25,780 bases of DNA from a virus. Positions within the stretch are counted from its first letter, which is position 1. Every line of letters begins with the position of its first letter. Below are positions 2,251 to 23,567 of the stretch, in pieces. A model generated the notes under the pieces. That model ran no database searches and was not told where the DNA came from. It saw nothing but the letters and a program-made list of their open reading frames with translations. The translations under genes and the position numbers were made by a program. The DNA lies in IMG/VR virus record IMGVR_UViG_3300031884_000120, positions 1 through 25,780 of that record. The stretch is one strand, 5' to 3'.

Positions 2251-2558
2251 TGGTCCAAGCAGTAACATATAATAAAAATAGTCCTTATGCCAACACACAG
2301 GTCTATTCATTTTTCTTAGATGTGGCTAATATACCCACTATCCCGATGAATGCCAGTGACACTCAATATCAAATTGATGCGATCTATGCTAATAGACCCG
2401 ATCTATTAGCCTATGATCTATATGGCGATGCTGGCCTATGGTGGGTGTTCAGTGTCCGTAATCCAAATACTATTCAAGATCCTGTTTTCGATTTCTTACC
2501 TGGTGCAGTAATTTATATTCCACAAAAAGCTACGATAACAGCCGCATTGGGGATATAA
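2250..2558 (+). CDS. 53: Baseplate wedge subunit gp53-like
   Basis: Small wedge protein of 102 residues with the gp53/LysM-like signature: R-P-D-L-L-A-Y-D-L-Y-G (49-59), L-W-W-V-F (63-67), V-R-N-P-N (69-73), and a closing L-P-G-A-V-I-Y-I-P (83-91) that resembles the end of a LysM-type domain. T4 gp53 is about twice as long, but short versions are usual in marine T4-like phages. Its start overlaps the upstream stop by one base, which suggests translational coupling, and TGGAGG (2235-2240) gives a 9-base spacing. In T4, gp53 joins neighbouring wedges around the hub, and the surrounding baseplate genes fit that role. Confidence 0.8.
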   Translation: MVQAVTYNKNSPYANTQVYSFFLDVANIPTIPMNASDTQYQIDAIYANRPDLLAYDLYGDAGLWWVFSVRNPNTIQDPVFDFLPGAVIYIPQKATITAALGI

Positions 2559-2561
2559 TCC

Positions 2562-5237
2562 GTGCAGACTTTATTTGGGGATTTATCACAGGCACAGATT
2601 ACCTATCTAGAAGGACAGGCCAATCTAGTCAATGTCGGTAATGCTTCTAATCCATCAGGTTTAAATATTACTAATCTGTTGAACAAACGACTAAGCGATT
2701 TTCCAGCTAGCCAACAACCACAAATTCAAACACAGATCAATGCAGTTAACGCACAGCTAGCAACACCGCAAGCACAACAACAAATCGCCTTGATCCAACA
2801 ACAGAACAATTCTTTACAAACACAAACACAGATAACCAGTACTGGTCCGACATCTGCTGATCAGGTAAACAATTCTACTCCTGGAGGAGCTACAAGTACT
2901 CCTACTACTGTTGCTGAAAATACTAATATCAGTCCTGGAGTGAATCCCAATCCTAATCCAGATCCGATCGGCTCGTCTGTAGAACCACCACCAGAACCAA
3001 ATCCTAATCCGGGCAGTAGTCGTGCTGATGTAGTCAATTCATTGAATGGAATAAACGCTAACCCAGATGTCATTGATCTAGCCGCACCAATGACCAATGT
3101 GTTGTTAGAATATCCCAGCTATACCTATGGCCTGAGTCTAGCACTACTCAGTGCCGCAGAATATAATAATCTGGTCGCAGGTGGCCAATATATTCCCAAT
3201 AGAGTATTAATAGCATCAGCGGGTAGATATAACAACACACCAGGACCAAATCAATTTATACGCAGTCCTTACTTCAGCGAAGATTTTTACTTTGAAGATT
3301 TTTCGATGACTACTGTCATTGGTACTAACGCTACAACACGCAACACTAATGCCATTGAATTGAATTTCACTATCATCGAACCTTATGGTATGACATTGAT
3401 CAATAGACTTTTAGATCAAGCTAATGATCCAGCGGTCAATGCCAGCAACTATCTCGACATGGTCTATTTGATACAGATCGATTTCTTTGCCACTGATGAA
3501 ACAGGTACTATCCAAGGCATCATTCCTGGATTAACCAAAATCATACCTATTAAACTTACGCAAATGGGCATCACTGCCAGTGTGTCAGGTGCTACTTATC
3601 AGATATCTGCTGTGCCATATAATCATGCGGCCTTTGATCAATCAGCAGTCAGCACACCTGCAAATTTTGAAATAGCATCAGGATCAGTCAGTGAATTTTT
3701 CCAATCAGGTAACGGTAGTAATAAGAGTTTTGCTGATGCACTAAATGGGTGGAACACGAATCTGGCTAATAATAATAAAATAGGTGTGCCTGATACATAT
3801 AATTTTGATTTACATCCTAGTATTGCACAATCATCTTTTACCACAGGTGGTGCATTAAGTCCACGTGATACCAGCATGGTCAATCCCAATAATACTACAT
3901 CAATACGTCAGAGCAACCTTGGTCAACCCAGTAAAGATTTTAATACTACATCAAGAACTATGAGCATCAATGCTGGTACTAGTATCGATAAAGTCATTGA
4001 CTATGTAGTACGTAATAGCGATTATATACAAAATCAAATGGCCATCCCCGATGGTGTAGATCCTCAGACCTATCTACAACAAAAAGCACAGAATGCCAAT
4101 CAACCTTTAAATTGGTACAAGATAGTGCCAACAGTTACAGTAGGACAATTTGACCCTATACGCAATATCAATGCTAAAAATTATACCTACAGCGTACAAC
4201 CTTATACGATTTATAATGTTAAAAGTGATGTAGCACCACAAGGTAAAGCCACTAACTTTGTCAAAGACTACAATTACATCTATACTGGTAAGAATGATGA
4301 TGTGATCACTTTTGATCTTAACTTTAACACATTGTACTATACAGCGCAGACAGCTTATAGATCAGCAGTTAGTAAATTATACAAGAGCCCAGACACAGCC
4401 ACACAAGGTAATCCCATACAAAATGCTGGAGCATATCAAGGAACAGGCCAAGCACCAAATTCAGTCATGCCCATGCAGGTCAAGCCACAGGTATATAATG
4501 CCAAAGCACGAGCTACAGGCGGGTCGATCAGTCCAAAAAGTGTCGCTGTTGCAGACCTAGAAGACAGCCTGATGACCTTGTCAGCTGCTGACATGTTAAA
4601 TGTACAGTTGACTATAGTGGGCGATCCACAGTTTATCAAACAAGATGATTGTTTTTACAGTCCGTTGTTAGCTGCCAGCAATACTGATGGTCGTCAAGGT
4701 ACGATCACAGCATCAGATCCTAGACTGACCCCTAATGGTAGTATTAGGACAGATTATACGGAAATCTATGTACGTCTAACTTTCAGGACCCCAGTTGACA
4801 TGGATGAAAATACTGGCCTATTGAAATTCAACAGCAACTATCAAACCAGTATTTTTTCAGGCTTGTATAAAGTATTGCAAGTGACTAGTGAGTTTAAAAA
4901 TGGCCAATTTACCCAACAGTTGAATCTCATACGTTTACCATTCCAAAACAAATATGATTACATGACACAACCACAGTCTAGCACTGGTCAACGTAACAGT
5001 GATCCTACTGCACAGACTACTGCTACATTAAGTAAAAACTTACCAGCACAGAATATTGGGTCGATACCATCAATGCCAACAGTAGAAGATTCAGGACAAC
5101 GACAAGCACAGAATCTATTACAGCCTCCGCCTATCGTAACTCAACAACAGCAGGCCTTGATAGACGTAAATAGTACAGCACCAACGCAGCCCATCAATGC
5201 ATCAAATGCACCAGTGGCAGTGATACCAGGACAATAA
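2562..5237 (+). CDS. Putative baseplate hub protein in the gp27 position (891 aa)
   Basis: Starts with GTG three bases after the gp53 stop, and GGGGA (2549-2553) supports this start. Residues about 50-92 are Gln-rich and coil-like, and 105-153 are Pro/Asn-rich. A first folded domain (about 175-375) contains an S-P-Y-F-S-E-D-F-Y-F-E-D-F motif and an E-L-N-F-T-I-I-E-P-Y-G-M-T segment. A low-complexity linker follows. A second folded region (about 510-800) ends with a conserved F-S-G-L-Y-K-V-L-Q-V-T-S segment near 765. The last 90 residues are Gln/Pro/Ala-rich. Two tube-like domains immediately before gp5 are what a gp27-type hub would show, and similar proteins occupy this place in marine T4-like phages. 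T4 gp27 has only 391 residues, and direct sequence similarity to it is not evident, so the identity is inferred from position and domain layout. Confidence 0.6.
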   Translation: MQTLFGDLSQAQITYLEGQANLVNVGNASNPSGLNITNLLNKRLSDFPASQQPQIQTQINAVNAQLATPQAQQQIALIQQQNNSLQTQTQITSTGPTSADQVNNSTPGGATSTPTTVAENTNISPGVNPNPNPDPIGSSVEPPPEPNPNPGSSRADVVNSLNGINANPDVIDLAAPMTNVLLEYPSYTYGLSLALLSAAEYNNLVAGGQYIPNRVLIASAGRYNNTPGPNQFIRSPYFSEDFYFEDFSMTTVIGTNATTRNTNAIELNFTIIEPYGMTLINRLLDQANDPAVNASNYLDMVYLIQIDFFATDETGTIQGIIPGLTKIIPIKLTQMGITASVSGATYQISAVPYNHAAFDQSAVSTPANFEIASGSVSEFFQSGNGSNKSFADALNGWNTNLANNNKIGVPDTYNFDLHPSIAQSSFTTGGALSPRDTSMVNPNNTTSIRQSNLGQPSKDFNTTSRTMSINAGTSIDKVIDYVVRNSDYIQNQMAIPDGVDPQTYLQQKAQNANQPLNWYKIVPTVTVGQFDPIRNINAKNYTYSVQPYTIYNVKSDVAPQGKATNFVKDYNYIYTGKNDDVITFDLNFNTLYYTAQTAYRSAVSKLYKSPDTATQGNPIQNAGAYQGTGQAPNSVMPMQVKPQVYNAKARATGGSISPKSVAVADLEDSLMTLSAADMLNVQLTIVGDPQFIKQDDCFYSPLLAASNTDGRQGTITASDPRLTPNGSIRTDYTEIYVRLTFRTPVDMDENTGLLKFNSNYQTSIFSGLYKVLQVTSEFKNGQFTQQLNLIRLPFQNKYDYMTQPQSSTGQRNSDPTAQTTATLSKNLPAQNIGSIPSMPTVEDSGQRQAQNLLQPPPIVTQQQQALIDVNSTAPTQPINASNAPVAVIPGQ

Positions 5238-6461: not shown

Positions 6462-6839
6462 ATGGCTACCACATATAAAGGATTCTCAACTATTGGGCAA
6501 AATAAGAATTTTCGCCTGACAGATTTTGACCTGATAAAACGAGATATCTTAAACAATTTCAGCATTCGCAAGGGTGAGAAATTGATGAATCCAAAATTTG
6601 GCACCATAATCTACAATGTACTACACGAACCCTTTACAGAAGATCTAAAATCAGTGATCACCAACGATATTAAAAGCATAGCCAGCTATGATCCTCGTGT
6701 TAGCTATGACAATATAGTAGTCACTGAATACGATCAAGGCATACAGATCCTGCTACAACTGCGTTATTTGCCTACAAATCAAAGCAGTTTGCTCAGCATG
6801 CAGTTTGATAACAACAGCAAAACCATGTCATTAAAGTAA
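6462..6839 (+). CDS. 25: Baseplate wedge subunit gp25
   Basis: Compact wedge protein of the gp25/TssE family, which lies where the wedge meets the inner baseplate and sheath. Visible family marks are the I-R-K-G-E-K-L-M-N-P-K-F-G segment (35-47), E-P-F-T (56-59) and D-P-R-V (77-80), which corresponds to the conserved EPR motif with Asp for Glu. The length of 125 residues is normal (T4: 132). It begins 8 bases after the gp5 stop, and its purine-rich site (AGAGGA, 6445-6450) overlaps the end of gp5. gp25 next to gp6 fits because the two proteins contact each other in contractile baseplates. Confidence 0.9.
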   Translation: MATTYKGFSTIGQNKNFRLTDFDLIKRDILNNFSIRKGEKLMNPKFGTIIYNVLHEPFTEDLKSVITNDIKSIASYDPRVSYDNIVVTEYDQGIQILLQLRYLPTNQSSLLSMQFDNNSKTMSLK

Positions 6840-6890: not shown

Positions 6891-9800
6891 ATGGCAACCA
6901 CGACCAGACAAACCAGTTTATTAGTTACAGAAGATTGGACTAAATTATATCAAACCTTCCGTAGCGCAGACTTCCAAAGCTATGACTTTGAAACACTTCG
7001 TGCTTCAATGATCAGCTATTTGCGTTTATACTATCCCGAAGATTTCAATGACTTTATCGAATCGAGCGAATTTATCGCATTGATCGACATGATCTCCTTC
7101 CTTGGTCAGTCATTGGCATTCCGTGGTGATTTAAATGCACGTGAAAACTTCATCGATACAGCAGAGCGTCGTGACAGTATACTTAAACTAGCACGTCTAG
7201 TCAGCTATACACCTAAACGTAATATCACATCACAGGGTTATTTAAAATTTGATTCAGTCAGCACTACTGAAAATGTATTTGACAGCAATGGTATCAACCT
7301 TAGCGGTCTGGTAATCAATTGGGCAGATGCAGGCAATGACAATTGGCAAGAACAATTTACCGCAGTATTGAATTCATCATTGTTGACTAATACGGTTATC
7401 GGAAAACCCAGTGCTACAGAACTCATCAATGGCATTACCTATAATGAATATCAGATCAATTTAATCCCTAGCACAGTGGCGACTTATTCTTTCAGCGTAA
7501 ACATCGAAGGTACTAAAACCAATTTTGAAATGGTCAGCCCCACATTTGCTGGCCAGAATTATGTATACGAAACCGCACCAAGACCAAATTTACCATTTAA
7601 CATTCTATATGAAAATGATGGACTAGGTAATAGTAGTGCCAACACTGGTTATTTCTTGTATTTTAAACAAGGTGCTCTTAACAGTGTTGATGTAAATTTC
7701 TTAGAAAGTATACCTAATAGGGTTTACAGTATCAACGTTGACAATATCAACAACACAGACATTTGGGTATATAGTCTAGATAAAAATAATTTACCAGATG
7801 TGTTATGGACACAGGTTCCAGCTGTGGGCGCGACCAATATTATCTACAATACTGAAACAGTTAAAACCATTTATCAAGTAACCAGCCGTGCTAACGACCA
7901 GATCGATATAGTGTTTGGTGATGGATCATTTGCACAAATTCCACAAGGCAATTTCAGGATTTATTATAGAGTCAGTAATGGTTTGAGCTATAAGATTACA
8001 CCTAGTGAAATGCAAGGCATCGTAATGCCTATCAACTATACTAGCCGCAGCGGACGTATTGAGACATTAACCATACGTGCTAGCCTACGCTATACAGTAG
8101 CTAATGCTGTAGCACGCGAAACCATTGATGACATACGTCAAAAAGCACCGCAACAATACTATACACAAAATCGTATGGTAACAGGCGAAGACTACAACAT
8201 CTTACCGTATACACTATTCAGCAACATCTTAAAAGTCAAAGCAGTTAATCGTACCAGTAGTGGGGTGTCACGTTATCTAGACGTTCTTGATGCTACGGGC
8301 AAATATTCAAGTACAAATATTTTCTGTAGTGACGGTATCATCTACAGAGATCCATTTGTAAAATCATTTACATTTGACTATGCGACCACCAATGATATCT
8401 ATCGCGTGATCTACGATCAAGTAGCACCAATAGCATCTGAACAAGAAACACTGCAATTTTTCTATTCACAGTATCCATTGATTTCATTGACCAACGTCTT
8501 TTGGAATTTTAGCACTGCTGTTGCTAATGGATCAACAGGTTACTTCTATGATGTCAATGGCAAAATACTACAAGTTGGACAAGTGGTGTCTAACGATATC
8601 AGATATATCACTCAAGGTGCTATCGTACGCTTCTCAGCAGGCACGGGCAATTACTTTGATGCCCAGAATCAAATTCAAGTAGGAACACCTAGCCATTCAG
8701 GTGACAAATATTATATCTATGCCAAAGTAGAATTGGTGATCGGTGATGGTACCAATGGCGGCCTGGGTGACTTGTCTAATGGATCAGGACCTATCACACT
8801 AAACAAGTCAGTACCGTTAGGTGCTATCGCAGATAAAGTATTTGCGGTATTTAATGTTGACTTTGGTGCTGATCTAATCGCGTCAATGGTCAGTTATATC
8901 CAAGCATATGAAAACTTTGGTCTACGCTATGACATTAATTCAACTACATGGAAATTGATTTTACCAGCCGACCTTAACACCGGTGATTTTAGTCTGAACT
9001 ATGCTGGTGATACCAGTAGCAAAGGTCTTGATTCAAGTTGGTTAATCGATTTTGAAACAGCAGGTAAAACCTATACCGTCAGCTATCGCGGATTGAATTA
9101 TGTGTTTGAAAGTACCCAACAGACTAATTTCTACTATGACAACACAGTTAAAGTATTTGATCCTAATACTGGATTGACTATACGAGACCAAATCAATGTG
9201 TTAAAAGTCAATAGCCAACCTGATTCAGCGAGTCCATTGGCATTAGACTATTCATGGTACGTTTATAAAAGCATCATTGAAGCTGATGGATATGAAAATC
9301 CCAATGCTATCTACGTAACATTCCCTGACACTAATAACTCAGGTGTACCTGATAATCCTGAATTGTTTGAATTAATCGTTGATCCTACAGTCAACACCAG
9401 CAGCAAGTATGTATATTTCCAAGGTACATACGGCTATGATAACTTTGTAGTACAAACACCAGTGGATAATACCACTGTGGTATCTAGCTATAATTCATTC
9501 ACTGAAGCCCAGGTAGCAGCTACATTGTATCAAGACGGTCAATTATTTTACATTCCACCAGCTGATGCTTTCTATCAACTGTCAGTGAGTGGCAGCACAT
9601 ATACACTAAATCTGGTGACTGGTTATAGTGCTAAAATCGGTCGCCAAAGCCTATACTTCCAATATCGTCATAACAGTCCAAACTATAGACGTATTGACCC
9701 AAGCCCAAATAACATCATCGACTTGTATCTTTTAACACAGCAATACGCTACTGATTATGTAGCATGGTTACAAGACACATCAGGTAGCATAGCTGAACCT

Positions 9801-10283
9801 ACTGCACCTACAGGTGAAGAATTAGGTCTCGCTTACAGCAGCTTAGAAAATTATAAGACGATCAGTGACACTATCATTTACAATCCTGCTAAGTTCAAAC
9901 CAATCTTTGGTGACAAGGCTCCGTTGAGTCTACAGGCAACATTTAAAGTAGTAAAGAATACCAACGTGGTAGTCAGTGATAATGATATCAAGACACAGGT
10001 GATCGCTACTATCAACACATATTTTGATATCGCTAACTGGGACTTTGGTGAAACATTTTACTTCTCTGAATTAGCAGCATATTTACATCAACAGTTGGCT
10101 CCGAATATTTCAAGTATATTAATCGTACCTGCTAGCAACAGCAGTGTGTTTGGTAGCTTAATGCAGATCAATGCTGAATTCAATGAGATTATACAAAGTG
10201 CTGCGACTGTGAAAAATGTTGAAATTATAACTGCTATCACAGCCGCTCAGATCAATCAAACCGGCACTGTAGTGATTGCTTAA
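6891..10283 (+). CDS. 6: Baseplate wedge subunit gp6-like, enlarged
   Basis: Wedge backbone protein of the gp6/gpJ type, forming the inner baseplate ring in T4. The N-terminal 120 residues carry the gp6 pattern: Y-D-F-E-T-L-R-A-S-M (31-40), L-R-L-Y-Y-P-E-D-F-N-D-F (45-56), A-L-I-D-M-I-S-F-L-G (63-72) and the segment around A-R-E-N-F-I-D-T-A. A gpJ-like segment near 405-450 includes R-Q-K-A-P and M-V-T-G-E-D-Y-N-I-L-P-Y (429-440). The C-terminus (about 1015-1130), with D-N-D-I-K-T-Q-V-I and F-Y-F-S-E-L-A-A-Y, matches the dimerisation-type end of such proteins. T4 gp6 has 660 residues; the extra 470 lie mostly in the beta-rich middle (about 480-1000). The start is fixed by AGGA (6880-6883), 7 bases upstream. 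It follows gp25, its usual neighbour. Confidence 0.85.
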   Translation: MATTTRQTSLLVTEDWTKLYQTFRSADFQSYDFETLRASMISYLRLYYPEDFNDFIESSEFIALIDMISFLGQSLAFRGDLNARENFIDTAERRDSILKLARLVSYTPKRNITSQGYLKFDSVSTTENVFDSNGINLSGLVINWADAGNDNWQEQFTAVLNSSLLTNTVIGKPSATELINGITYNEYQINLIPSTVATYSFSVNIEGTKTNFEMVSPTFAGQNYVYETAPRPNLPFNILYENDGLGNSSANTGYFLYFKQGALNSVDVNFLESIPNRVYSINVDNINNTDIWVYSLDKNNLPDVLWTQVPAVGATNIIYNTETVKTIYQVTSRANDQIDIVFGDGSFAQIPQGNFRIYYRVSNGLSYKITPSEMQGIVMPINYTSRSGRIETLTIRASLRYTVANAVARETIDDIRQKAPQQYYTQNRMVTGEDYNILPYTLFSNILKVKAVNRTSSGVSRYLDVLDATGKYSSTNIFCSDGIIYRDPFVKSFTFDYATTNDIYRVIYDQVAPIASEQETLQFFYSQYPLISLTNVFWNFSTAVANGSTGYFYDVNGKILQVGQVVSNDIRYITQGAIVRFSAGTGNYFDAQNQIQVGTPSHSGDKYYIYAKVELVIGDGTNGGLGDLSNGSGPITLNKSVPLGAIADKVFAVFNVDFGADLIASMVSYIQAYENFGLRYDINSTTWKLILPADLNTGDFSLNYAGDTSSKGLDSSWLIDFETAGKTYTVSYRGLNYVFESTQQTNFYYDNTVKVFDPNTGLTIRDQINVLKVNSQPDSASPLALDYSWYVYKSIIEADGYENPNAIYVTFPDTNNSGVPDNPELFELIVDPTVNTSSKYVYFQGTYGYDNFVVQTPVDNTTVVSSYNSFTEAQVAATLYQDGQLFYIPPADAFYQLSVSGSTYTLNLVTGYSAKIGRQSLYFQYRHNSPNYRRIDPSPNNIIDLYLLTQQYATDYVAWLQDTSGSIAEPTAPTGEELGLAYSSLENYKTISDTIIYNPAKFKPIFGDKAPLSLQATFKVVKNTNVVVSDNDIKTQVIATINTYFDIANWDFGETFYFSELAAYLHQQLAPNISSILIVPASNSSVFGSLMQINAEFNEIIQSAATVKNVEIITAITAAQINQTGTVVIA

Positions 10284-10313: not shown

Positions 10314-13300
10314 ATGGCTGTAACAAGAAAAACCCTTAATCTATTACCAACCGTATTCCAAACTGATACGAATCAAAAATTCTTATCAGCTACTATGGAT
10401 CAATTGGTCAGTGAACCCAATCTTACTACCTTATATGGATATGTAGGCCGTAAATTTGCACCTACCTATCAAGATGGTGACAGTTATGTTATCGAAGATT
10501 CTGCGGCTAGACAAAATTATCAACTTGAACCTAGTATCGTTGTTAAAAATGATCAACAGAATGTTACTTTCTTTAGTAGCTATGTAGATTTCTTAAATAA
10601 GATCAATTACTATGGTGGATTTACTAACAATCAAAGTAGATTATTTGATAATGAATATTACAGCTTTGATCCATTGATCAGCTATGATAAGTTTGTTAAT
10701 TTCAGTCAATACTATTGGTTACCAAATGGCCCAGCACCGGTTTCAATCAGCACATCAGGCACACCTTTAACAGCGACATTTAACGTCTATAGAAATGCCA
10801 GCAATGGTGATTATGTCTACACGTCAAATGGCCAACCAGTTCATGCCTTGACATTAGCCAGAGGTGGCGTATATAAATTTGTAGTTGATCAACCAGGATA
10901 CCCTTTCTGGATACAAACAGAATTAGGTACCAATGGAACATTAGCTGCGACTCCTACGATCAGTTCACGAACAGTATTAGGAGTTGACAATAACGGTACA
11001 GATTCTGGCACTGTTACATTTTTAGTACCGCAGTCAACAGCACAAGATAGATTTACAGCAATGACCACTGTGGCATCGATTGACTATGCCACTCCAATAC
11101 CTTATTATCTATTCCAAAATAAAACACAAAGTCAATTTGAAGCTGAATATCCGCAGTATGTGGGCATCGTTGGTGATATTAATAGTAAACAACTGGTATT
11201 CTTAGATCAAGACCTTTCTGATTCCACATGGACTACTCCAGTAGTACATGACAACAATGGTAATGTTGTTCCCGGATACAATGCAGGTACGATAGTACCA
11301 AATTCAGAACGTTATGGCATATGGCAAGTGTTGACTGTTGATGCTGGAATCACCAAACCTGATGGTTCACCTGACCTGTTGATCACTTTATTCTATGTCC
11401 GAGATGTGGTAGTCAATCAAAAGGTCTACATCAAATATGGTGTAGCTAATGCTAATAAAGAATTTTATAAGGACTATGATGGGTTCTTCCATCAGACCCC
11501 ATTACTCAGCAGCCTATTAGACACATTGTATGTCCAAGACCAATATAATGCTAATTTAAATAATGCTATTAAAATAGTAGAATATTCAGGATGGGTCATT
11601 GATGTTGAAAATGATATCCTAGGACAACAAAATTATACTAGCCCAAATGGGGTTGACTTTACTACAGGATTAAAAATTGAATTTGGTACAGATGTCACTC
11701 CTGCCAGCTATCAAAATAATCAATATTATGTTGAAGAAGTTGGTAGTCTTGGCACAGGTATCAGATTAATTCCAGTTAGCGAATTAGTCACTCCTGAAGC
11801 ATATAACACAGAAAATGCCACTTTATATCCAACTAACAAAATAGTTCTAGACACAGCTACCAATGATGTTATACCTGCTGGTACTACTATCACTATTGGC
11901 AGTACAGCAATAGTCACTGATACTTCTATATCAAAAGGATCATTGTACATAACAACATTAACCAGCATCGCTGATATAACTTATGGTATGTTAGTATCAG
12001 GAACAGGTATCGCCAGCGGAACATTAGTAAATGATGCTTATCTAGCAACAGTATTTCCAGATTATATCACTATCAATCGCAGCAGTTTAGATCGTAACGC
12101 ATGGTCACGTAACAATCGTTGGTTCCACGGTCAGGTTATAACAGACACAGCCAAGTACCGAGGTGAAGTAGTATCATTTGATCAGAATCTACGTGCTAAA
12201 CGTCCTATCATACAGTTTGACGCTGACATACAGTTATTCAATGCTGGACGCATAGGTAAAGTGCCTGTAGATATATTAGATACCACGACAGTAGATGCAT
12301 TTACACAGTTAGACGGACAGATATTAAACTTTGCATTTGGCGTTCCATTGTTTAATGGCATGCGAGTGATATTTGCTGCAGATAAAGATCCGTTGGTAAT
12401 CAATAAAATCTATGTGATAAATCTAGTCCAATATACCGTCGACAATGCGGGAGCTCCTTCAGGACCAAAATATATCAAACTAGATGTTGCCAGTGATGGT
12501 GTGGGACAACCCTATGACACTGTGGTAGTGACCAAAGGTCAGTATGCAGGTAGCCAATGGTGGTATGATGGTGTTCAATGGAACGCCAGCCAACAAAAAA
12601 CAGCACTACAACAAGAACCTTTATTTGATGTTTATAACAGCTCAATTGACTTAGTTAATGGACTTATCGTCAATGGTGCTAGCCTAAGCACACTAGATAG
12701 AAGTACATTTGCAGGTACTAAACTATTTGGCTATTTAAAAAATGCATCAGCGACACCAGACCCAGTCCTAGGATTTGGACTTACCTATAGAAGCCTAGGC
12801 ACACAAGGCGATATAGAATTCCAAAATTATTTTAATTCTGATACATTTACCTATGCAGTTGATAATGTTGTGGGTACTTACGATATTTCGATCGGGTTCC
12901 TACAAAAAATCGTTGACAGATATACATTAGCACCAAAAAATACTTGGCAAAGAGTCGCTGAATTTAGTAAACAATATCAATTGATTGGATATATCTATGA
13001 TGGCACCAGCAGTGTATTCCCTATAGATGTCACACCCAATGATGCGGCTACCATACCTTATATCAAAGTATTTAAAAACTTCAACTACCTAACTGATAGT
13101 CAATGGATATTGGTGTCAGGGCAAGTCAGACTCACTGACAGTCAGGTATTCATCGGTGATGGCACCACAACCCAATTTATATTAACCAATGTAAATTCTA
13201 CAACTAATGGTGTTATCGTTTTAATTAACAATATTCCAAGACAGTCAGCAGGATTATATTCTGTTGTTGGTACTACTATTACATTTGTTACAGCACCGGT

Positions 13301-16300
13301 AGTCGGCACAGTCATTGATATCAGAGTAATCACGACGCTAACTCTTGGTGATAAGATTGACATCTTAGTGTATAGTTCAGAACAAAGCAAGCTGGGCTAT
13401 TACGAAATTCCATTGAATTTAGATTTAAATGCGCAGAATGCAGATATCAATACACTAACGCTAGGCCAGATTCGTAACCATTTAGTAGCACTAGGACAAA
13501 ACACCACACAATTAATTGGCAACATCCTAAGCAGTAATAATTTAAGAGACATAGATATCAAACAACAAGGTGGTATCATCCTCCAACATGCGGCTCCAGT
13601 GCCATACGGTGAATTATTCTTGACCGATGATCAAGCTAACCTCATCGATTCTTTACGTCTGGCTACTAAAGAATATACTAAATTTAAAAATAAATTCTTA
13701 GAATTAAGTGTATCGTTAAATGGCATCAATCCTACAGATCCAATTAAGAGCGTTGACTTAATTTTAGCCAATATCAACGCATTAAAGAATACCACATTCC
13801 CATGGTACTATAGTGATATGGTTCCATACGGTACACAAAAAACCACTTTAAGTTATACAGTGTTTGATATCAATCAGACTGATTATGAAATCAATGCCGT
13901 ATTCAACAGCAATCAATTGAGTAATCGTGCTGTATTGGTTTATGTCAATGGTAATCAATTGGTCAAAGATCTTAACTTTACATTCTTAACAGATAGGCCA
14001 GCAGTAAGATTTATTGATACATTAAACTTAGGTGACAGCATATCTATCGTGGACTATGCTAATACTGATGGTAATTACATACCTGAAACACCAAGTAAAC
14101 TAGGCCTATGGCCAAAATCAATCCCCGAATTATTCTATGATAATAGTTATAGAACTCCTATCACTGTAGTGCGAGGTCATGATGGTAGTATCACTCCAGG
14201 ATTTGGTGACTATAGAGATAGTTTCTTATTAGAATTAGAATTAAGAATTTACAACAATATCAAACTTCCTGATACAGGAACCTATGGTGATATACTTTCA
14301 GTGATACCTGGTGCGTTTAGGCCTACTGATTATAGCCTAGCTGAAATTGATCAGTTAGTCGCACCAAGTTTCCTAAGTTGGATTGGTAATAACAGTCTAG
14401 ACTTTACGATCAATAATACATTTGATTCTAATGATCCATTTACTTGGAATTATTCAAGCTTCACTGACAAGATAACAGGTAACAGACTACAAGGCAGTTG
14501 GCGTGCTTGCTATCAATATTTCTATGATACATTTACCCCACACTTAACACCTTGGGAAATGTTAGGTTTTACTACTATGCCTGTTTGGTGGCAAGAAGAA
14601 TATGGTCCTGGACCATATACCAGCGGTAATAAATTATTGTGGCAAGATCTAGAAGCAGGCCTTATCCGTAACGGTACTCGCGCAGGAATTGATCCGCATT
14701 ATGCTCGCCCAGGACTGTCACAGATCATTCCAGCAGATGCCAACGGAAATTTATTGAGTCCAGCGGCAGTGTTGACGGTTGTGCCTAATCCTTATAGAGC
14801 TGCTGATGCTTGGGCTATTGGACAATATGGTCCTGTAGAATTTGCCTGGAGATCTAGCAGTGAATTCCCTTATGCTGTTCAGAGAGCCATCGCATTAGCT
14901 AAACCAGCTAGGTATTTTGGTCAGCAGATTGACACATACAATTATACCAATCTCAATGCTTTGTATGATTTAGCTATTGATGCTGGTCAATATCTCATCA
15001 GAGGTAATAATCATCACATTAGACAAACAGATATCAACTATAACGGTCAAACCGTCGATGGAATGATCTACCGTGGCGCAGGTTATCTAAATTACATCGC
15101 TGACTATTTGACCAGCTTAGGTGTCAATCCATCTAATAAGATCACTACATTATTACAAAATTATCAAGTTAACCTTGCTTATAAAGCTGCAGGGTTTACT
15201 GATCAAAATTATTTAAATGTTCTGGCTGAACAAAATTCACCTTCAAGCACCAATGATACCATTGTGATTCCTAATGAAAACTACAAGGTCTATCTAAATA
15301 AATCTACACCAACACAAACATTAAACTATAGTGCGGTGATAGTTGAAAAACAAGCCAATGGATATTCAGTGCGTGGATATGATATCAATAATCCTTACTT
15401 TACTATCATTCCTAGCATAGTCGATGGTAATGCTACCCAATTGTCTGTATTGAACAGCACAGCCACAGTGTTTAACAACTATCAAAAAGTTAAACTCACT
15501 GTTCCTTATGGATACGAATTTTCAAATCCTCAACAGATAGTAGATTTCTTGATCAGCTATGAAAGATATCTATTAAGTCAAGGATTTACGTTTAATGATA
15601 CAGACCCTAATCTAGGTGAACAAAGAGATTGGAAATTATCAGCTAAAGAATTCTTATATTGGGAACAACAAGGTTGGCAAACAGGAACTATCCTAGTATT
15701 AAGTCCAGTAGCTAATGTATTGAATGCTGTTAGCGTTGGTGCTATCACTGATGGAATATCAGACAGTCAATATGGCAGTCGTGTAATTGATCAAAACTTT
15801 AAATTGATCAAGAACGTTGACTATGATGTATTACGATCAGCTAATACATTTAAAGTTACGATAACAAATTCTGCGTCAATGATCGGCTTTGTAGAAGTAG
15901 ATCTAGTGCAATACGAACATGTATTGATATTTGACAATACCACAGTGTTCAATGATGTGATCTATCAACCAGATTCTGGTAATAGACAATTCCGTTTAAA
16001 ACTAATTGGTCAGAAAACTGCTGATTGGGATGGTAGCTTGTATGCTCCAGGATTCATCTACTGGGCAGGTCAGATCGATGAATGGAGTGCCGGTAACGAT
16101 TATCTACAAGGTGACCTAGTACAGTACAAGAATCAATATTATACTGCACTACAAGATGTGATCGCCAGCACTACATTCCAATTCCAATATTGGCAACAGT
16201 TAAACAAGAGCCAAATCCAAACTGGCCTATTACCTAACTTTAGTATGTTGGCCGCTGAAGGTAAAGCCTACTATAATGATTATCCAAGTATTGATAGTAA

Positions 16301-19300
16301 AAAACAAGTAGAGTTCAGTCACGGATTGATCGGATATCGCCCAAGACAGTATCTAAGTGATCTCGGGCTTAGCGACACCACACAGATAGAATTTTACAAA
16401 GGTTATATAGCACAAAAAGGTTCATTAAATGCTGTAACACAAATGACCAGTGCTACATTTAATAATCTCAGCAGTAACATCTCTCTATATGAAGAATGGG
16501 CCATGCGTGTTGGTGAGTATGGTGCTATCAGCAGCAATCCTTATGTAGAAGTTCCACTAAGTGAAAGCGCATTTGGTGCTAATCCTAGTATGGCAGAGTT
16601 TGTTGACATAGCTAATAGCAATCTAGCTGATGGTATCACGATTTTTAATCAACAACAACTTTATAAATCAGAAGGTATTTACACGGGTAATATCGCGCTG
16701 AATAGAACCATACACAGTAACTATGACAATGACATACCTACTGCTGGTTATGTTAATCTTAATGACATTGACGCCACACTGTTTGATATCAGCAACTACA
16801 GTTCATTGAACAGTCAGATCGATATTATCGGTAGCGGGTATAGGATTTGGGTAGCCAAAGATCAAAAACAAAACTGGAATGTATTCCGTGTTTCAGAAAC
16901 TAATAATTTTATTTCGAATGTCACAGTCGCATCAACAGGATATGTGACATTCAAATCAACACTACCACATGGGTTAGCAGTTGGTGATGTATTCCTCGTC
17001 AAAGGCCTATCAACAACATTTGATGGATTCCATCAAGTACATGCGGTAATAGATAATAATCATGTAACTGTGCCATTTACAGGTGACACAACAGCATTAC
17101 CATTGGCAGGCAAAGGCCCATTATTTGTTCTATATACCCTACGTTTCAAATATATGGAAGATGCACGTATATTTGGATTGAGCCAACCCATCGGTGGTTG
17201 GAAAGTAGGTGAAAAGATCTGGGTTGATGTCACGGCTGCGACGACGCTCAGTGAAGGTGTACCTTATGTTACTCCAAACAACGTCTGGAATGTATACGAA
17301 AAAGCCCATCCTTGGAACTCAACTCAACAATTACTCAAAGGATCAGGCGAATATACCACAGGTGACGGATTTGGAACCAGTGTGTCCATGAGTGCTGATA
17401 ACAGTGCTGTTGCTGTCGGATCACCATATGCTGCAACAACAGGTACAGTACAAATATTCTTAAAGAATTATCAGAATGAATTCAACGAAGGGTTCACCAT
17501 TTTACCTCTAACTACCAATACTGTATCATTTGGGTCAGCAGTAAGTCTAGCTGCAGACAGCAATAACAATAGTATATTAGCAGTCGGTGCACCACAAAGT
17601 TATGGCAATGTAGGTTATGTCATGCTTTACAGCAAAGCACCAGGATTTAATTCTTATACTGCTACGCAGGTTATCGTGGGTAATACAGTATCAGCAACAT
17701 CTGAAACATTTGGTTCTACGCTGGTATTGAACACTGATGCACATTGGTTATACGTTGGAGCTCCTGCTAATGATCGTGCTTATACCTATGGTCTAAACAG
17801 TCGTGTTCCATATAAACAACAGATCACATCTGTCAATAACACAAACTATATTCGACTTACAGGCAATGTTACAGTAAATGTAGGTGATATATTGACTGAA
17901 CCAGTATCAGGTGCGTCAGTTAAAGTATTAGCCGCAGGTACCAACATCAGTAATGTTAAAGTTAGCAGTCTAACTAATATTATTACCAATGGTATTCTAG
18001 CTAACATCGTATTAAGCGGCAATATCACTGCTAACATCGGTGATTCAATCACACAAACATCAAGCAATAGTTCTGCTATCGTCTACGGTGCAGTACAAAA
18101 CAGTAATCGAGTCTATGGACTTTACAGCACAGGACCTTTTGATACTACAGGTAATATCGCAATCAATGGTAATGTACAGGTCGTACATCCAACTTATGTT
18201 GGTTCAGGTAATATTTTCTTAAATGGCAATGATACTAAATTATATGCTAATGTGACCTACACCAGTGCTACTACAAATTCTATCGCATTGAACTTTGTGC
18301 CTTACGTGGCTAATGATGCTAGTTCATTGTTTATTACCAGTGGAGCAAAAACATTCTTACCAGGCCTTGACTATACATTGTCTGGAAATACTGTTAATTT
18401 TATTTCAGGTAATTTATCACCAAGCACTATCACTATAACACAACAACCTTATTATGCGAAAGTAGGTGATCCTTTACATGGTAATGTTGGTAGTAAATTT
18501 GGTACTACATTGTCAACCAGTGCTGATGGTGCACAATTAGCTGTTGGTGCTCCAGCTGACACAGTAGTTGGATTAAAATCTGCAGGTAGTATATTTGTCT
18601 ATGACAGAGTTATTGAAGCATTTAAGAGTACAGGAAATACTGATTACATAACTAAGAATCCAATTGGGTCAGTGTATAGGGTGACTATTGATGGAGTTGA
18701 AGTACCAACTACAGATTACGTTTTAATAGGTACTAATACCATACGTTTTGCTCCACCACCGCCAGTAGGTCATGTAATTTATATTGAAGTAAACTTAATC
18801 AATCTGCTAGAACAATTAATTGGTGTAGACAGTTTAGAAAATACCTTGACAGCATTACAGGCCAACGCGGCATTCGGTACCAGCGTAACAGTTTGTAGCA
18901 TTAACTGTGCGATCTATACAGGCGCACCATATTATAATAATGGGACTGAATATAGTTCAGGTGCTGTATGGAAATTCCACAACAGAGGTCGACTATATGG
19001 TACCAATACAGGTTATAAAGTCAATCCGGTGTTTACTCCTGGTGACAGTATCCGACTAAACAATTTTGAAATCGTAGTATCAGGTCGAATGATGCCGACT
19101 ACAGTTAATGGTGCGGCAGCAAATATACTTGCACTCAGCAGTAATGTATCAGCGACTGTAGGTCAATACATCACGCAAGCCAGCTCAGGTGCAAATGTGC
19201 GTGTGTTGGCAAACGTAACCAACGGTCAATTTATTACAGTAAGTAATTATTTAAATGCCAATACATGGAACTATGGTCAAAGTATCGCAGGTGCTAATTT

Positions 19301-22300
19301 AATATCTATAGGTGGCACAGTATCATCAGCACACCCAATGGCCAGCCTGGATAGTATAGTCAAGGATGTTAATGATGCTAAGATCTTAGGTGTTACAGCA
19401 GTTAACCAAGGTGGCCTGTTAAGATTAAATTCAGACGTTACCATCGTCAAAGATCAATTGCGTATCTTATCAGGTATACGCACTCCTGGTAGTTCAGGTG
19501 TTTATGCGGATGCTGACTTGCGACTATTCGCATTTATGCAGATCATCGTAAATCCATTTGGATCAGCTGATGAATATTTTGGCAACACGGTTAAAATCGC
19601 TCCTAATGCCTATATGTTGATCATTGGTAGTAGTCGTGGCACTACACATACATTTACATCATTTGATAAGAAAACAACAACCAATGGAACTACATTTGAT
19701 GCAGATTCCACTAGATTTGTTGCTACACTAGCTGGTAGCGGTAGTGTTTATATCTATGAATTGTATGATGATCCACGTAATGATGTTTATACTCCTGGAC
19801 GTTATCAATACTGTCAACAACTTGATCCAGGAGGTCTATCCTCAGGCGACCGTTTTGGTTATGCATCTGATATACAAGGAACTTACGCTGTCACGACAGC
19901 TCCAGGTACTACTGTTACCGGTGAACCTGCAAAATCAGGTACAGTCTACATATTCCATAATCCAACATTAGCCAGAGGTTGGGGATTGATACATAGTCAA
20001 GAAGATCTAATAGATGTAGATAGTTTAAGTAGAGCTTATCTTTACAGTAACCAAAGCAATACAATATTAATAAATCTACAGTTCATTGATCCAGCTAAAG
20101 GTCGCATACTTGGTGAAGCTGAACAAGAAATCAGTTATAAGACCGAATATGATCCAGCGGTGTATAACCACGGTACTAATGCATCAGCTGACATAAATTC
20201 TAGTTACTATTGGGGATCACAACAAGTTGGTCAAGTTTGGTGGAACTTATCAAAAGTACGTTATATCTTATACGAACAAGATACACTTTCATATCGCAGT
20301 ATCAACTGGGGTAGCACATTCCCAGGTTCGACTATCGAAGTTTGTGAATGGGTAGAATCTACGGTATTACCAAGCCAATACACTGGTGATGGTCAACCTA
20401 AATACGCTGATAATTCAGCTTATGTACAAATAACTTATGTTGATGCAGTTACTGGCATTATCAGCAGCAAATATTATTTCTGGGTGATCAATAAAAACAC
20501 AGTGGATCCAAATAATCCAACCAGACTGTTACCAATCACTACTATCGCAGATTACATACAAAATCCTAAAAATCAAGGTATTGCTTATGCCGCTGTGATA
20601 CAACAAAATGCAGTGATCTTGTATAACATTAGTCAGTATCTATCAGCTGACAATACTATCTTACATTTAGATTATCAATTGGTAATCAATACAAACATCA
20701 TACACAGTGAATATGAACTTGTACAAAAAGGCAATGCAGATGTTGAAGTACCACCTAAGTTAGTTGATAAATTAATAGACAGCCTAGCAGGCATCGATTC
20801 ATTTGGATCTGTGGTTCCTGACCCAGCATTGACCACAGCGGCCAGTTACGGTATCAGCATACGTCCAAGACAAAGCATGTTTATTGATAGATTGACTGCG
20901 GTCACTGAGTTGGTAGCTTATGTGAATGTTATTTTAGCCGCAAATCCAATCGCTAAGCAATTTGATCTCACACAGATGAATTCTCAAGATCCAATACCTA
21001 ATGTTAATTCAGGTGCATACGATCAAAGTGTGGCCGTTGATGCTGACTTAAATTACATTGATACCAGTGCGTTAGCTACTGGATACAAAGTTTTAGTAAT
21101 AAATGATACCACTCAAGATGGTCTATGGGTGATATATCAATTGACAGCCGACAAGACTTGGGATATTTATCAAGTACAATCTTATAAATCTAGTTTATAC
21201 TGGCACTATACTGATTGGTATGCAGACGGATATAGCGCATCAACACAGATTACATTTACAGTTGAAACTACCAATGATGCCATAGCATTAAAACCAGTAG
21301 CAGGTGATATAATCTTTATCACCAATGCAACAGGTAATGGTACATGGCAATTGGTGTTGGTCAATACTAACGGCATTTTTGAAGTGATTGGTATCCAAAA
21401 TGGTACTATACAATTAGATACTTCATTAGGTGATTTCGCCAATAACAGTTTAGGCTTTGGTAATCAAGGTTTCTCAACTGGTAGATACGATCAAAATCCA
21501 AATATTGAAACACGTTATATCATACAAGCATTGAGAGATAATATTTTCATTAATACTCTCAATGGCCAATTTAACAATTTATTCTTTGTTATGGTAAATT
21601 ACATATTCAATGAGCAAAAATATGTTGATTGGATATTCAAGAGCAGCTTTATCAGTATCAAACATAAACTTAGAACTCTAGCTCAGTTCCCAAGTTACAT
21701 ACAAGATAATCAGACTTATTATCAAAGTTATATTGAAGAAGTTAAGCCATATAGAACACAAATTAGAGAATATTCAATTGATTATACCGGCAATGACACA
21801 TTTGATGGTGATGTCACTGACTTCGACTTACCTGCATACTATGATACCAGCACTAGCTATAATATATTCCGTAGCCCAAGTGGAGAAGCACCATATACAG
21901 CTGAAGATGAAGCAACGTGGCAAACATATCCTTATAATCAATGGTACAATAATAGAAAATTACAACTTGATAGTATCTTGGTAGAAAATCCAGGTCTTGG
22001 TTATACTTCCATACCTGAAATTACAATCACTGGCGGTGGTGGTAGTGGTGCCACAGCTATAGCTGAAATCAATGGCAATACTGGTGCGTTGATTGGTATC
22101 ACTGTTACTAACAGTGGATCTGGATATACTTATACTCCAACTGTAACGATCAATGGTAGTGCAAATGTTGCTGCAACAGCGTATGCAGTGATTAAAAATC
22201 ATCAGGTTAGAAATTTTGACACAACGATCAAATTTGACCGCACAACATACAAGAGCACAGTACTACAATGGCAAGCTAACACAGCCTATACAGTTGGTCA

Positions 22301-23567
22301 GATAGTGACCTATGCACAACAAGAAGACAATGCTATGATAAGACGTGCTTATCAAGTTAATGCTAATACTGTGACACCAGCTATGTCATTTATCGCATCT
22401 AATTACACGCTGTATGCAGCCAACTTGTTTACTAATGCCAGCGATCGTATCGTAGGGTATTACCAACCAGCTGAAAACATGCCAGTGGTTGATGTTATTT
22501 CAGTACCACTTACAGTAGCTAATGCGGCAGTTAATACCAATAAGATCTATGTGTTCCCTGTAGACTTTATCATTCCAGGCATGTCAATTAGTGACAACGG
22601 AGTCACTGCTGGATTGATATCTAATGTAATATCAAATGTTTCGATCACTATCAGTAATGTAGTTGTAAGCGTAACTCAATTGACACTAAGTGTTAATGTT
22701 AGCCTAGCTACAGATACTACTATCACAGGAACATACAACAGTTTAGATCAATTGATCGCTGGCGTAACATACCCATCATTGCCCACAGTTGGTGCAGACT
22801 TTAAACTCAATCCGTTATTTGGTGAAACATTCGACAATGTGCCTTATGATGGTATAGAATATTCACAAGATGGTATCCCATTGTTATCAACTGCTGTGGT
22901 AGATACTATATTGCAAAGTAATTATACAGATGAATCACTTGGTATTACTCCAGGAGATATTACCACAGATGGTGGACAATACTTGGATCCATATCACAGC
23001 CATGCTCCAGAAGAACTAGTGCCAGGTATAGTATTTGATACCTTAGATATGAGAATTTACACTTCTAATGTTATGATTAATAGTGTTAGTTCAACTGTGG
23101 CCTATAGGATATTTGATAACATGATAAATCAACCTAGTTATCTACGTATCGCTGATGCTTATACCACAACACTAACAGCTAATTTATATCTAACTGACTC
23201 AAATGTTCATGTGGCTAATGCTTCAATATTACCAACTCCTAGCATTATACTTAATACTCCAGGAGTAGTGTTTATTAATAATGAACGTATTACCTATTGG
23301 ACTGCTAATACTATAACAAACACATTAGGACAAATACGTAGAGGTACACAAGGTACGGCTGTTCCAAATGTACAAGTAATAGGATCTAAGGTAATCGATG
23401 CTAGTCCACGTCAGATAATCCCAGGTACTAGCTTTGGTAATTTATTGGCCAATGTGGATGTATTCTATAACCCAGGACCAAATATTGCTACAGATGGTAC
23501 CGGAATCAATGGATCGAATGCTCAGGGAGCACTTTTCTTAAAAGCTAGCCCAGCAACAGTGTCTTAA
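10314..23567 (+). CDS. Giant virion protein in the gp7 position, with embedded FG-GAP propeller (4417 aa)
   Basis: One uninterrupted frame of 13.25 kb, probably a peripheral baseplate wedge protein. The ATG has AGGA (10305-10308) 5 bases upstream. The N-terminus (F-L-S-A-T-M-D-Q-L near 23-31, F-S-Q-Y-Y-W-L-P near 130) and a Trp/aromatic-rich core (about 1375-1480, with P-V-W-W-Q-E-E-Y at 1423-1430) resemble giant structural proteins of marine T4-like phages. Short sandwich modules start near 967, 1207, 2673 and 2788. Seven FG-GAP-type blades, each F-G then V-G-A-P or similar then G-x-V-x-I-F, have their F-G Phe at 2353, 2406, 2466, 2729, 2854, 3089 and 3181. A helix-rich part spans about 3734-3820. 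A Gly-rich repeat pair with G-Y-T-x-x-P lies at 3890-3961. A tail-type motif near 4317-4365 includes F-I-N-N-E-R-I-T-Y and L-G-Q-I-R-R-G-T. T4 gp7 has 1032 residues, and identity with gp7 is inferred only from position after gp6. Other outer baseplate functions could be fused in. Confidence 0.75.
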   Translation: MAVTRKTLNLLPTVFQTDTNQKFLSATMDQLVSEPNLTTLYGYVGRKFAPTYQDGDSYVIEDSAARQNYQLEPSIVVKNDQQNVTFFSSYVDFLNKINYYGGFTNNQSRLFDNEYYSFDPLISYDKFVNFSQYYWLPNGPAPVSISTSGTPLTATFNVYRNASNGDYVYTSNGQPVHALTLARGGVYKFVVDQPGYPFWIQTELGTNGTLAATPTISSRTVLGVDNNGTDSGTVTFLVPQSTAQDRFTAMTTVASIDYATPIPYYLFQNKTQSQFEAEYPQYVGIVGDINSKQLVFLDQDLSDSTWTTPVVHDNNGNVVPGYNAGTIVPNSERYGIWQVLTVDAGITKPDGSPDLLITLFYVRDVVVNQKVYIKYGVANANKEFYKDYDGFFHQTPLLSSLLDTLYVQDQYNANLNNAIKIVEYSGWVIDVENDILGQQNYTSPNGVDFTTGLKIEFGTDVTPASYQNNQYYVEEVGSLGTGIRLIPVSELVTPEAYNTENATLYPTNKIVLDTATNDVIPAGTTITIGSTAIVTDTSISKGSLYITTLTSIADITYGMLVSGTGIASGTLVNDAYLATVFPDYITINRSSLDRNAWSRNNRWFHGQVITDTAKYRGEVVSFDQNLRAKRPIIQFDADIQLFNAGRIGKVPVDILDTTTVDAFTQLDGQILNFAFGVPLFNGMRVIFAADKDPLVINKIYVINLVQYTVDNAGAPSGPKYIKLDVASDGVGQPYDTVVVTKGQYAGSQWWYDGVQWNASQQKTALQQEPLFDVYNSSIDLVNGLIVNGASLSTLDRSTFAGTKLFGYLKNASATPDPVLGFGLTYRSLGTQGDIEFQNYFNSDTFTYAVDNVVGTYDISIGFLQKIVDRYTLAPKNTWQRVAEFSKQYQLIGYIYDGTSSVFPIDVTPNDAATIPYIKVFKNFNYLTDSQWILVSGQVRLTDSQVFIGDGTTTQFILTNVNSTTNGVIVLINNIPRQSAGLYSVVGTTITFVTAPVVGTVIDIRVITTLTLGDKIDILVYSSEQSKLGYYEIPLNLDLNAQNADINTLTLGQIRNHLVALGQNTTQLIGNILSSNNLRDIDIKQQGGIILQHAAPVPYGELFLTDDQANLIDSLRLATKEYTKFKNKFLELSVSLNGINPTDPIKSVDLILANINALKNTTFPWYYSDMVPYGTQKTTLSYTVFDINQTDYEINAVFNSNQLSNRAVLVYVNGNQLVKDLNFTFLTDRPAVRFIDTLNLGDSISIVDYANTDGNYIPETPSKLGLWPKSIPELFYDNSYRTPITVVRGHDGSITPGFGDYRDSFLLELELRIYNNIKLPDTGTYGDILSVIPGAFRPTDYSLAEIDQLVAPSFLSWIGNNSLDFTINNTFDSNDPFTWNYSSFTDKITGNRLQGSWRACYQYFYDTFTPHLTPWEMLGFTTMPVWWQEEYGPGPYTSGNKLLWQDLEAGLIRNGTRAGIDPHYARPGLSQIIPADANGNLLSPAAVLTVVPNPYRAADAWAIGQYGPVEFAWRSSSEFPYAVQRAIALAKPARYFGQQIDTYNYTNLNALYDLAIDAGQYLIRGNNHHIRQTDINYNGQTVDGMIYRGAGYLNYIADYLTSLGVNPSNKITTLLQNYQVNLAYKAAGFTDQNYLNVLAEQNSPSSTNDTIVIPNENYKVYLNKSTPTQTLNYSAVIVEKQANGYSVRGYDINNPYFTIIPSIVDGNATQLSVLNSTATVFNNYQKVKLTVPYGYEFSNPQQIVDFLISYERYLLSQGFTFNDTDPNLGEQRDWKLSAKEFLYWEQQGWQTGTILVLSPVANVLNAVSVGAITDGISDSQYGSRVIDQNFKLIKNVDYDVLRSANTFKVTITNSASMIGFVEVDLVQYEHVLIFDNTTVFNDVIYQPDSGNRQFRLKLIGQKTADWDGSLYAPGFIYWAGQIDEWSAGNDYLQGDLVQYKNQYYTALQDVIASTTFQFQYWQQLNKSQIQTGLLPNFSMLAAEGKAYYNDYPSIDSKKQVEFSHGLIGYRPRQYLSDLGLSDTTQIEFYKGYIAQKGSLNAVTQMTSATFNNLSSNISLYEEWAMRVGEYGAISSNPYVEVPLSESAFGANPSMAEFVDIANSNLADGITIFNQQQLYKSEGIYTGNIALNRTIHSNYDNDIPTAGYVNLNDIDATLFDISNYSSLNSQIDIIGSGYRIWVAKDQKQNWNVFRVSETNNFISNVTVASTGYVTFKSTLPHGLAVGDVFLVKGLSTTFDGFHQVHAVIDNNHVTVPFTGDTTALPLAGKGPLFVLYTLRFKYMEDARIFGLSQPIGGWKVGEKIWVDVTAATTLSEGVPYVTPNNVWNVYEKAHPWNSTQQLLKGSGEYTTGDGFGTSVSMSADNSAVAVGSPYAATTGTVQIFLKNYQNEFNEGFTILPLTTNTVSFGSAVSLAADSNNNSILAVGAPQSYGNVGYVMLYSKAPGFNSYTATQVIVGNTVSATSETFGSTLVLNTDAHWLYVGAPANDRAYTYGLNSRVPYKQQITSVNNTNYIRLTGNVTVNVGDILTEPVSGASVKVLAAGTNISNVKVSSLTNIITNGILANIVLSGNITANIGDSITQTSSNSSAIVYGAVQNSNRVYGLYSTGPFDTTGNIAINGNVQVVHPTYVGSGNIFLNGNDTKLYANVTYTSATTNSIALNFVPYVANDASSLFITSGAKTFLPGLDYTLSGNTVNFISGNLSPSTITITQQPYYAKVGDPLHGNVGSKFGTTLSTSADGAQLAVGAPADTVVGLKSAGSIFVYDRVIEAFKSTGNTDYITKNPIGSVYRVTIDGVEVPTTDYVLIGTNTIRFAPPPPVGHVIYIEVNLINLLEQLIGVDSLENTLTALQANAAFGTSVTVCSINCAIYTGAPYYNNGTEYSSGAVWKFHNRGRLYGTNTGYKVNPVFTPGDSIRLNNFEIVVSGRMMPTTVNGAAANILALSSNVSATVGQYITQASSGANVRVLANVTNGQFITVSNYLNANTWNYGQSIAGANLISIGGTVSSAHPMASLDSIVKDVNDAKILGVTAVNQGGLLRLNSDVTIVKDQLRILSGIRTPGSSGVYADADLRLFAFMQIIVNPFGSADEYFGNTVKIAPNAYMLIIGSSRGTTHTFTSFDKKTTTNGTTFDADSTRFVATLAGSGSVYIYELYDDPRNDVYTPGRYQYCQQLDPGGLSSGDRFGYASDIQGTYAVTTAPGTTVTGEPAKSGTVYIFHNPTLARGWGLIHSQEDLIDVDSLSRAYLYSNQSNTILINLQFIDPAKGRILGEAEQEISYKTEYDPAVYNHGTNASADINSSYYWGSQQVGQVWWNLSKVRYILYEQDTLSYRSINWGSTFPGSTIEVCEWVESTVLPSQYTGDGQPKYADNSAYVQITYVDAVTGIISSKYYFWVINKNTVDPNNPTRLLPITTIADYIQNPKNQGIAYAAVIQQNAVILYNISQYLSADNTILHLDYQLVINTNIIHSEYELVQKGNADVEVPPKLVDKLIDSLAGIDSFGSVVPDPALTTAASYGISIRPRQSMFIDRLTAVTELVAYVNVILAANPIAKQFDLTQMNSQDPIPNVNSGAYDQSVAVDADLNYIDTSALATGYKVLVINDTTQDGLWVIYQLTADKTWDIYQVQSYKSSLYWHYTDWYADGYSASTQITFTVETTNDAIALKPVAGDIIFITNATGNGTWQLVLVNTNGIFEVIGIQNGTIQLDTSLGDFANNSLGFGNQGFSTGRYDQNPNIETRYIIQALRDNIFINTLNGQFNNLFFVMVNYIFNEQKYVDWIFKSSFISIKHKLRTLAQFPSYIQDNQTYYQSYIEEVKPYRTQIREYSIDYTGNDTFDGDVTDFDLPAYYDTSTSYNIFRSPSGEAPYTAEDEATWQTYPYNQWYNNRKLQLDSILVENPGLGYTSIPEITITGGGGSGATAIAEINGNTGALIGITVTNSGSGYTYTPTVTINGSANVAATAYAVIKNHQVRNFDTTIKFDRTTYKSTVLQWQANTAYTVGQIVTYAQQEDNAMIRRAYQVNANTVTPAMSFIASNYTLYAANLFTNASDRIVGYYQPAENMPVVDVISVPLTVANAAVNTNKIYVFPVDFIIPGMSISDNGVTAGLISNVISNVSITISNVVVSVTQLTLSVNVSLATDTTITGTYNSLDQLIAGVTYPSLPTVGADFKLNPLFGETFDNVPYDGIEYSQDGIPLLSTAVVDTILQSNYTDESLGITPGDITTDGGQYLDPYHSHAPEELVPGIVFDTLDMRIYTSNVMINSVSSTVAYRIFDNMINQPSYLRIADAYTTTLTANLYLTDSNVHVANASILPTPSIILNTPGVVFINNERITYWTANTITNTLGQIRRGTQGTAVPNVQVIGSKVIDASPRQIIPGTSFGNLLANVDVFYNPGPNIATDGTGINGSNAQGALFLKASPATVS

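Follow-up and report, generated by a model that had tools for sequence, protein, structure and literature searches.

A predicted integrin-alpha-type beta-propeller inserted in a giant baseplate protein of uncultured jumbo phages

Our analysis indicates that a giant protein encoded in a jumbo-phage baseplate operon very probably contains, at residues about 2332-3225 and inserted at a modular hairpin site, an FG-GAP beta-propeller of integrin-alpha type whose seven blades close into a single ring, as judged from structure prediction. We lean towards the fuller reading that this inserted propeller also serves as a binding head.

The giant ORF and its baseplate operon

The window analyzed here is the whole of a 25,780-base IMG/VR virus record (G000), and its ORF set reads as a T4-type baseplate operon. 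The first named member is gp53-like (2250-2558), followed in listed order by hub and spike-like proteins and a gp25-like protein of 125 aa (6462-6839). Downstream of these, a gp6-like baseplate wedge protein (6891-10283, plus strand; phrog_10646, with tblastn matches to RaK2-like gp6) provides a synteny anchor. The window gp6 is closest to the gp6 proteins of the jumbo phages Atu_ph07, Phosso, 121Q, GAP32, RaK2 and PA5oct. Next comes the giant ORF of 4417 aa (10314-23567, plus strand, as are all features described below), and two more genes lie 3' of it in the window. ORFs and PHROG matches give the order gp53, gp25, gp6 and then the giant ORF, which is the position of gp7 in the T4 order 53-5-6-7; the label 'gp7' denotes synteny only. 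T4 gp7 also sits after gene 6, but has 1032 aa, and a profile comparison with this single T4 sequence, a weak test, detected no similarity (best probability 0.5%). Searches of PDB sequences with the whole giant protein, and with the C-flank of the propeller, gave no useful match.

The sequence-only reading of this DNA had called the giant ORF a baseplate protein. That setting is supported insofar as the ORF lies directly downstream of gp6 and mass spectrometry has detected its equivalents in virions, namely PA5oct gp355 by ESI-MS/MS and CBB_236 with 21 peptides (PMC5259590).

We also noted a carbohydrate-binding-like CBM_5_12 match in the same giant protein (16080-16196, residues 1923-1961), which at E 2.9e-6 is barely over the cut-off, and a PA5oct-group homologue of the protein is annotated as chitin-binding type-3. 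Further downstream, 21972-22223 (residues 3887-3970) encodes two GxGYTxxPxVTITGGG-type repeats that match an insert of ~1,500 aa in Atu_ph07 and Phosso.

A predicted seven-bladed ring

The seven FG phenylalanines lie exactly where they had been placed in the 4417-aa translation, at residues 2353, 2406, 2466, 2729, 2854, 3089 and 3181. A regular expression for the motif matched seven times within residues 2340-3220 and not once in the remaining 3536 residues, and 2000 shuffles of the region gave a mean of 0.13 matches and a maximum of 3. This contrast flatters the case because the expression was composed after the motifs were seen, and the case therefore rests on Pfam, conservation and structure. 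In a profile search of the kind that the sequence-only reading had proposed, Pfam FG-GAP_2 (PF14312) matched, at E 4e-9 for the whole protein (37 bits) and E 4.8e-13 for the sub-region (49.5 bits), both above the curated cut-off of 23 bits; just two to three of the seven repeats score individually. FG and GAP-like halves are present in all seven blades, and a strict expression with the closing G-x-V-x-F fits five, with blades 3 and 6 departing from it. In an alignment of 73 rows (the window and 72 relatives), the FG glycine columns of blades 1 to 7 are conserved in 71, 73, 65, 69, 71, 69 and 73 rows, and the strongly conserved columns of the propeller region are mostly blade-motif positions. 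The family profile, from sequence alone, matches integrin alpha-M in the PDB at E 5e-7.

We modeled residues 2190-3345 (1156 aa) with AlphaFold2. The prediction (pLDDT 86.9, pTM 0.78) shows a single closed ring with insertions projecting from its loops, as had been proposed, and the strand order A-B-C-D runs through all seven blades. In VIA-align, model residues 143-1036, corresponding to protein residues 2332-3225, aligned with the integrin alpha-M propeller over 352 residues (Z 38.5, rmsd 2.5 Å). A model of the insertion-free relative L087 (646 aa; mean pLDDT 78.9, about 90 within the propeller) had integrin alpha-V beta-3 as its top Foldseek match and aligned with integrins over 328 residues (Z 38.0). 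Integrins fill all 50 best VIA-align rows for both models, rows that are re-ranked Foldseek matches and show integrins as best among those only. The predicted model and its alignment to complete integrin propellers agree on a single closed ring of seven blades with four strands each, the arrangement of the integrin-alpha type.

The spacing of 263 and 235 residues between some consecutive FG motifs could instead suggest scattered FG-GAP-like repeats in separate domains, with no single ring. This alternative is highly improbable and, at the level of prediction, is refuted: the closed ring appears in two confident models (window and L087), the Z of 38 is to complete integrin propellers, and relatives without insertions keep the same seven blades. 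The last observation also bears out the earlier argument that a count of exactly seven points to a single ring.

Aligning the model with integrin alpha places the predicted propeller, loop insertions included, at 17307-19988; the 17361-20010 first assigned to it differs from this by no more than about 60 bases. Motifs and model strands together place blade 1 at 17370-17501 (FG at 2353), blade 2 at 17529-17678 (FG at 2406), blade 3 at 17709-18461 (FG at 2466), blade 4 at 18498-18818 (FG at 2729), blade 5 at 18873-19550 (FG at 2854), blade 6 at 19578-19820 (FG at 3089) and blade 7 at 19854-19958 (FG at 3181). Strand D of blade 3 (residues 2713-2716) follows an insertion and was assigned by comparison with relatives (L076). 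The first strand in the integrin alignment, which precedes blade 1, starts at integrin residue 1. We propose that an N-terminal strand at residues 2335-2340 (NSTQQL; 17316-17333) forms the outer strand of blade 7, which would complete that blade in a velcro closure as in integrins. With such a closure the domain would fold independently, and its gain or loss would spare the surrounding protein.

The insertion site and its occupants

A tblastn search of phage records with the window's own propeller returned no match, so relatives were taken from IMG/VR. Searching IMG/VR with the propeller region recovered one relative, L008, which has the same seven motifs with different intervening insertions. 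Searches with the C-flank and with the L008 alignment then yielded, among the matches listed, 73 distinct proteins in which both flanks are kept; these were selected by similarity, and the propeller's frequency among them is no measure of prevalence. FG-GAP_2 matched 22 of the 24 members of a minimal set, the relatives scanned individually. Relatives with an insert of ~360 residues, among them L087, L072 and L073, have seven blades and no large loops.

The sequence-only reading had also suggested surveying gp7-position proteins of related phages for the insertion. An insert is present at the site in all of the 73 kept proteins except L071, although in L067 a YHYH domain (PF14240, E 4.5e-29) replaces the propeller, and the propeller is absent at the site in RaK2, 121Q, GAP32 and PA5oct. 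L071, a single metagenomic contig, offers a clean empty site in a close relative. Its site reads WGVYQYDAVDNSWTVIRNQEPQVDINS, and the corresponding L087 flanks read WGVYTFNSPW... and ...AWNLTRQQTPQVDINS; from this comparison, the propeller opens a beta-hairpin (W-x-VY ... W-x-x-x-R-x-Q) at its turn. In the window, model strands place the first half of the hairpin at VWNVYEK (residues 2324-2330; 17283-17303), where the empty L071 site reads WGVYQYDAVDNSWTVIRNQ, and the second half, also by comparison with L071, at WGLIHS (residues 3223-3228; 19980-19997). The 133-kb contig of L071 contains no FG-GAP match elsewhere. In a core tree (FastTree, branch support left aside) L071 is nested among propeller carriers, which suggests that it lost the propeller.

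Among isolates, RaK2, 121Q and GAP32 align to the conserved core that flanks the insertion on either side. RaK2 spans the whole propeller region with 17 residues, and 121Q and GAP32 likewise lack the propeller; we found no FG-GAP match genome-wide in PA5oct, RaK2, 121Q or GAP32. In Atu_ph07 and Phosso, a stretch of Gly-rich GxGY-type repeats about 1,500 residues long lies near the site, and the insert in their gp7-position proteins has no FG-GAP match. The site is thus modular, holding a propeller, a YHYH domain, other inserts or nothing.

Blade loops and possible functions

It is mainly in the C-D loops of blades 3, 4 and 5 that the propellers differ in length; these loops measure 217, 61 and 181 residues in the window and shrink to a minimum of 3 in relatives, consistent with the earlier description of insertions of up to ~200 residues between blades. 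The insertions are large, beta-rich and variable in length. That of blade 3 (residues 2496-2712; 17799-18449) ranges from 3 to 303 residues in relatives, that of blade 4 covers residues 2767-2827, and that of blade 5 (residues 2891-3071; 18984-19526) ranges from 3 to 351. By integrin convention, all three lie on one face of the propeller. A ~50-aa repeat, LSGNVTxxVGxxITQxxSGA, occurs within these insertions in three diverged copies, at 17838-18158 and 19113-19298 (residues 2509-2615 and 2934-2995); the blade-3 insertion holds two copies together with a DYTxSGNTVxF stretch, and similar stretches are found in the blade-3 loop of L078 and L085. An apparent resemblance of part of the blade-5 insertion (residues ~3010-3055) to Flagellin_IN was dropped, as Pfam gave no such match.

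The blade-6 B-C loop (residues 3107-3142; 19632-19739) lies on the opposite face and is long and conserved, including G3143: D3118, D3129, T3133 and S3142 are kept in 64-72 of the 73 rows, and the first three of these in 69-72. With the pattern TTFD..T.FD..ST.F.D.I..SG it is the most conserved long loop, a possible metal or partner site.

We propose that the propeller would act as an accessory binding head on the baseplate, its decorated face touching the cell surface and aiding attachment. The site in relatives holds other modules or nothing, which suggests that the propeller may well be a swappable binding head. Modularity, dispensability and the decorations on one face favor binding; even so, this function, taken by itself, is a serious possibility that falls short of probable. 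Receptor-binding tips are expected to evolve quickly, and a comparison of identities revealed no faster evolution of the propeller core than of the adjacent N-flank (0.28 versus 0.29, 0.48 versus 0.49 and 0.58 versus 0.58 for core and flank). Propeller distances track N-flank distances (r 0.87). These equal rates do not look like an arms race over receptor binding and count against a binding head; we also identified no sugar-binding residue in the propeller.

In the main rival explanation the propeller is a docking platform, a rigid adaptor for another part of the virion (fibre, spike or neighboring wedge protein) that would be held through the conserved face of the blade-6 loop. In favor of docking, the propeller and the protein around it are inherited together and diverge equally fast, and conservation of the blade-6 loop across very different phages is more in keeping with a conserved partner in the virion than with a ligand on the host. 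Repetitive fibre-like genes also adjoin the giant ORF. Yet L071, which lacks the propeller, retains downstream genes of the same kind, and unrelated modules occupy the site in other phages. Docking is a credible but less probable role, and we would rank the binding head slightly ahead of it. It is unlikely that the propeller is structural filler, a ride-along domain that binds nothing in particular and only adds bulk or stiffness. The site does tolerate emptiness and unrelated inserts, and the giant protein bears further repeat modules, but the blade motifs and the blade-6 loop are conserved down to about 28% identity, which argues for selection on the fold at least.

Comparison with known propellers

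A large domain, the I domain, is inserted in integrins too; the window propeller differs in that blades 3-5 receive its insertions, in their C-D loops. It resembles integrin alpha propellers (PDB 9t3y, 5es4 and 1jv2), which form the ligand-binding heads of animal integrins, in its seven blades, its FG-GAP motifs, its alignment from the N-terminal strand and its top structural match. In integrin-alpha propellers, the A-B loops of several blades bind calcium through a DxDxDG motif (PMC3192720), whereas a motif scan found none in the window propeller, which shares 16% identity and has no integrin context; DxDxDG-like strings are scattered in 12 relatives, at positions unassigned relative to the blades. 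The propeller is not an integrin: it lacks the calcium loops, and where an integrin alpha subunit would have thigh and calf domains, a membrane anchor and a beta-subunit partner, its flanks are the conserved core of a phage virion protein.

FG-GAP proteins are already annotated in phages and giant viruses. FG-GAP_2 repeats occur in annotated virion proteins of cyanophages S-TIM66 (UYE96926) and S-TIM5 (H6WG31), but there as a stand-alone 407-residue protein with regular repeats, outside any baseplate wedge protein. Two jumbo phages whose baseplate operon is related, Sinorhizobium phage Phosso (ORFs 107/108) and Atu_ph07 (a 'hemagglutinin protein'), also have FG-GAP repeats, but in separate genes rather than in the gp7-position protein. 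The two giant Phosso proteins (L125 1-14979) hold most of that phage's 42 FG-GAP_2 matches and are apparently propeller strings. RaK2 gp465, 121Q 582, GAP32_230, CBB_236 and PA5oct gp355 share the homologous core flanking the insertion and the same place after gp6; those of RaK2, 121Q, GAP32 and PA5oct differ in having no propeller at the site. Phage CBB has beta-propellers in a jumbo-phage virion, but of Kelch type and in separate genes (PMC5259590). We found no paper on FG-GAP, baseplates and phages in a partial search of the literature, with subscription journals outside its scope; within that coverage, the novel part is the propeller insertion and its site, FG-GAP phage proteins themselves being known.

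None of the isolate genomes examined has a propeller at this site, yet dozens of distinct contigs from uncultured jumbo phages have a predicted integrin-alpha-type propeller that is built into a baseplate protein and can be removed from it. An integrin-like propeller bearing inserted domains also occurs here in a virus of bacteria. With a clean empty site and alternative modules at hand, its role is testable by domain deletion. We tentatively suggest that uncultured jumbo phages may keep a dedicated plug-in site in the giant baseplate wedge protein, which could be left empty or filled by an integrin-type propeller, Gly-rich repeats or a YHYH domain as an interchangeable host-binding head, with a further layer of variable domains on one face of the propeller.
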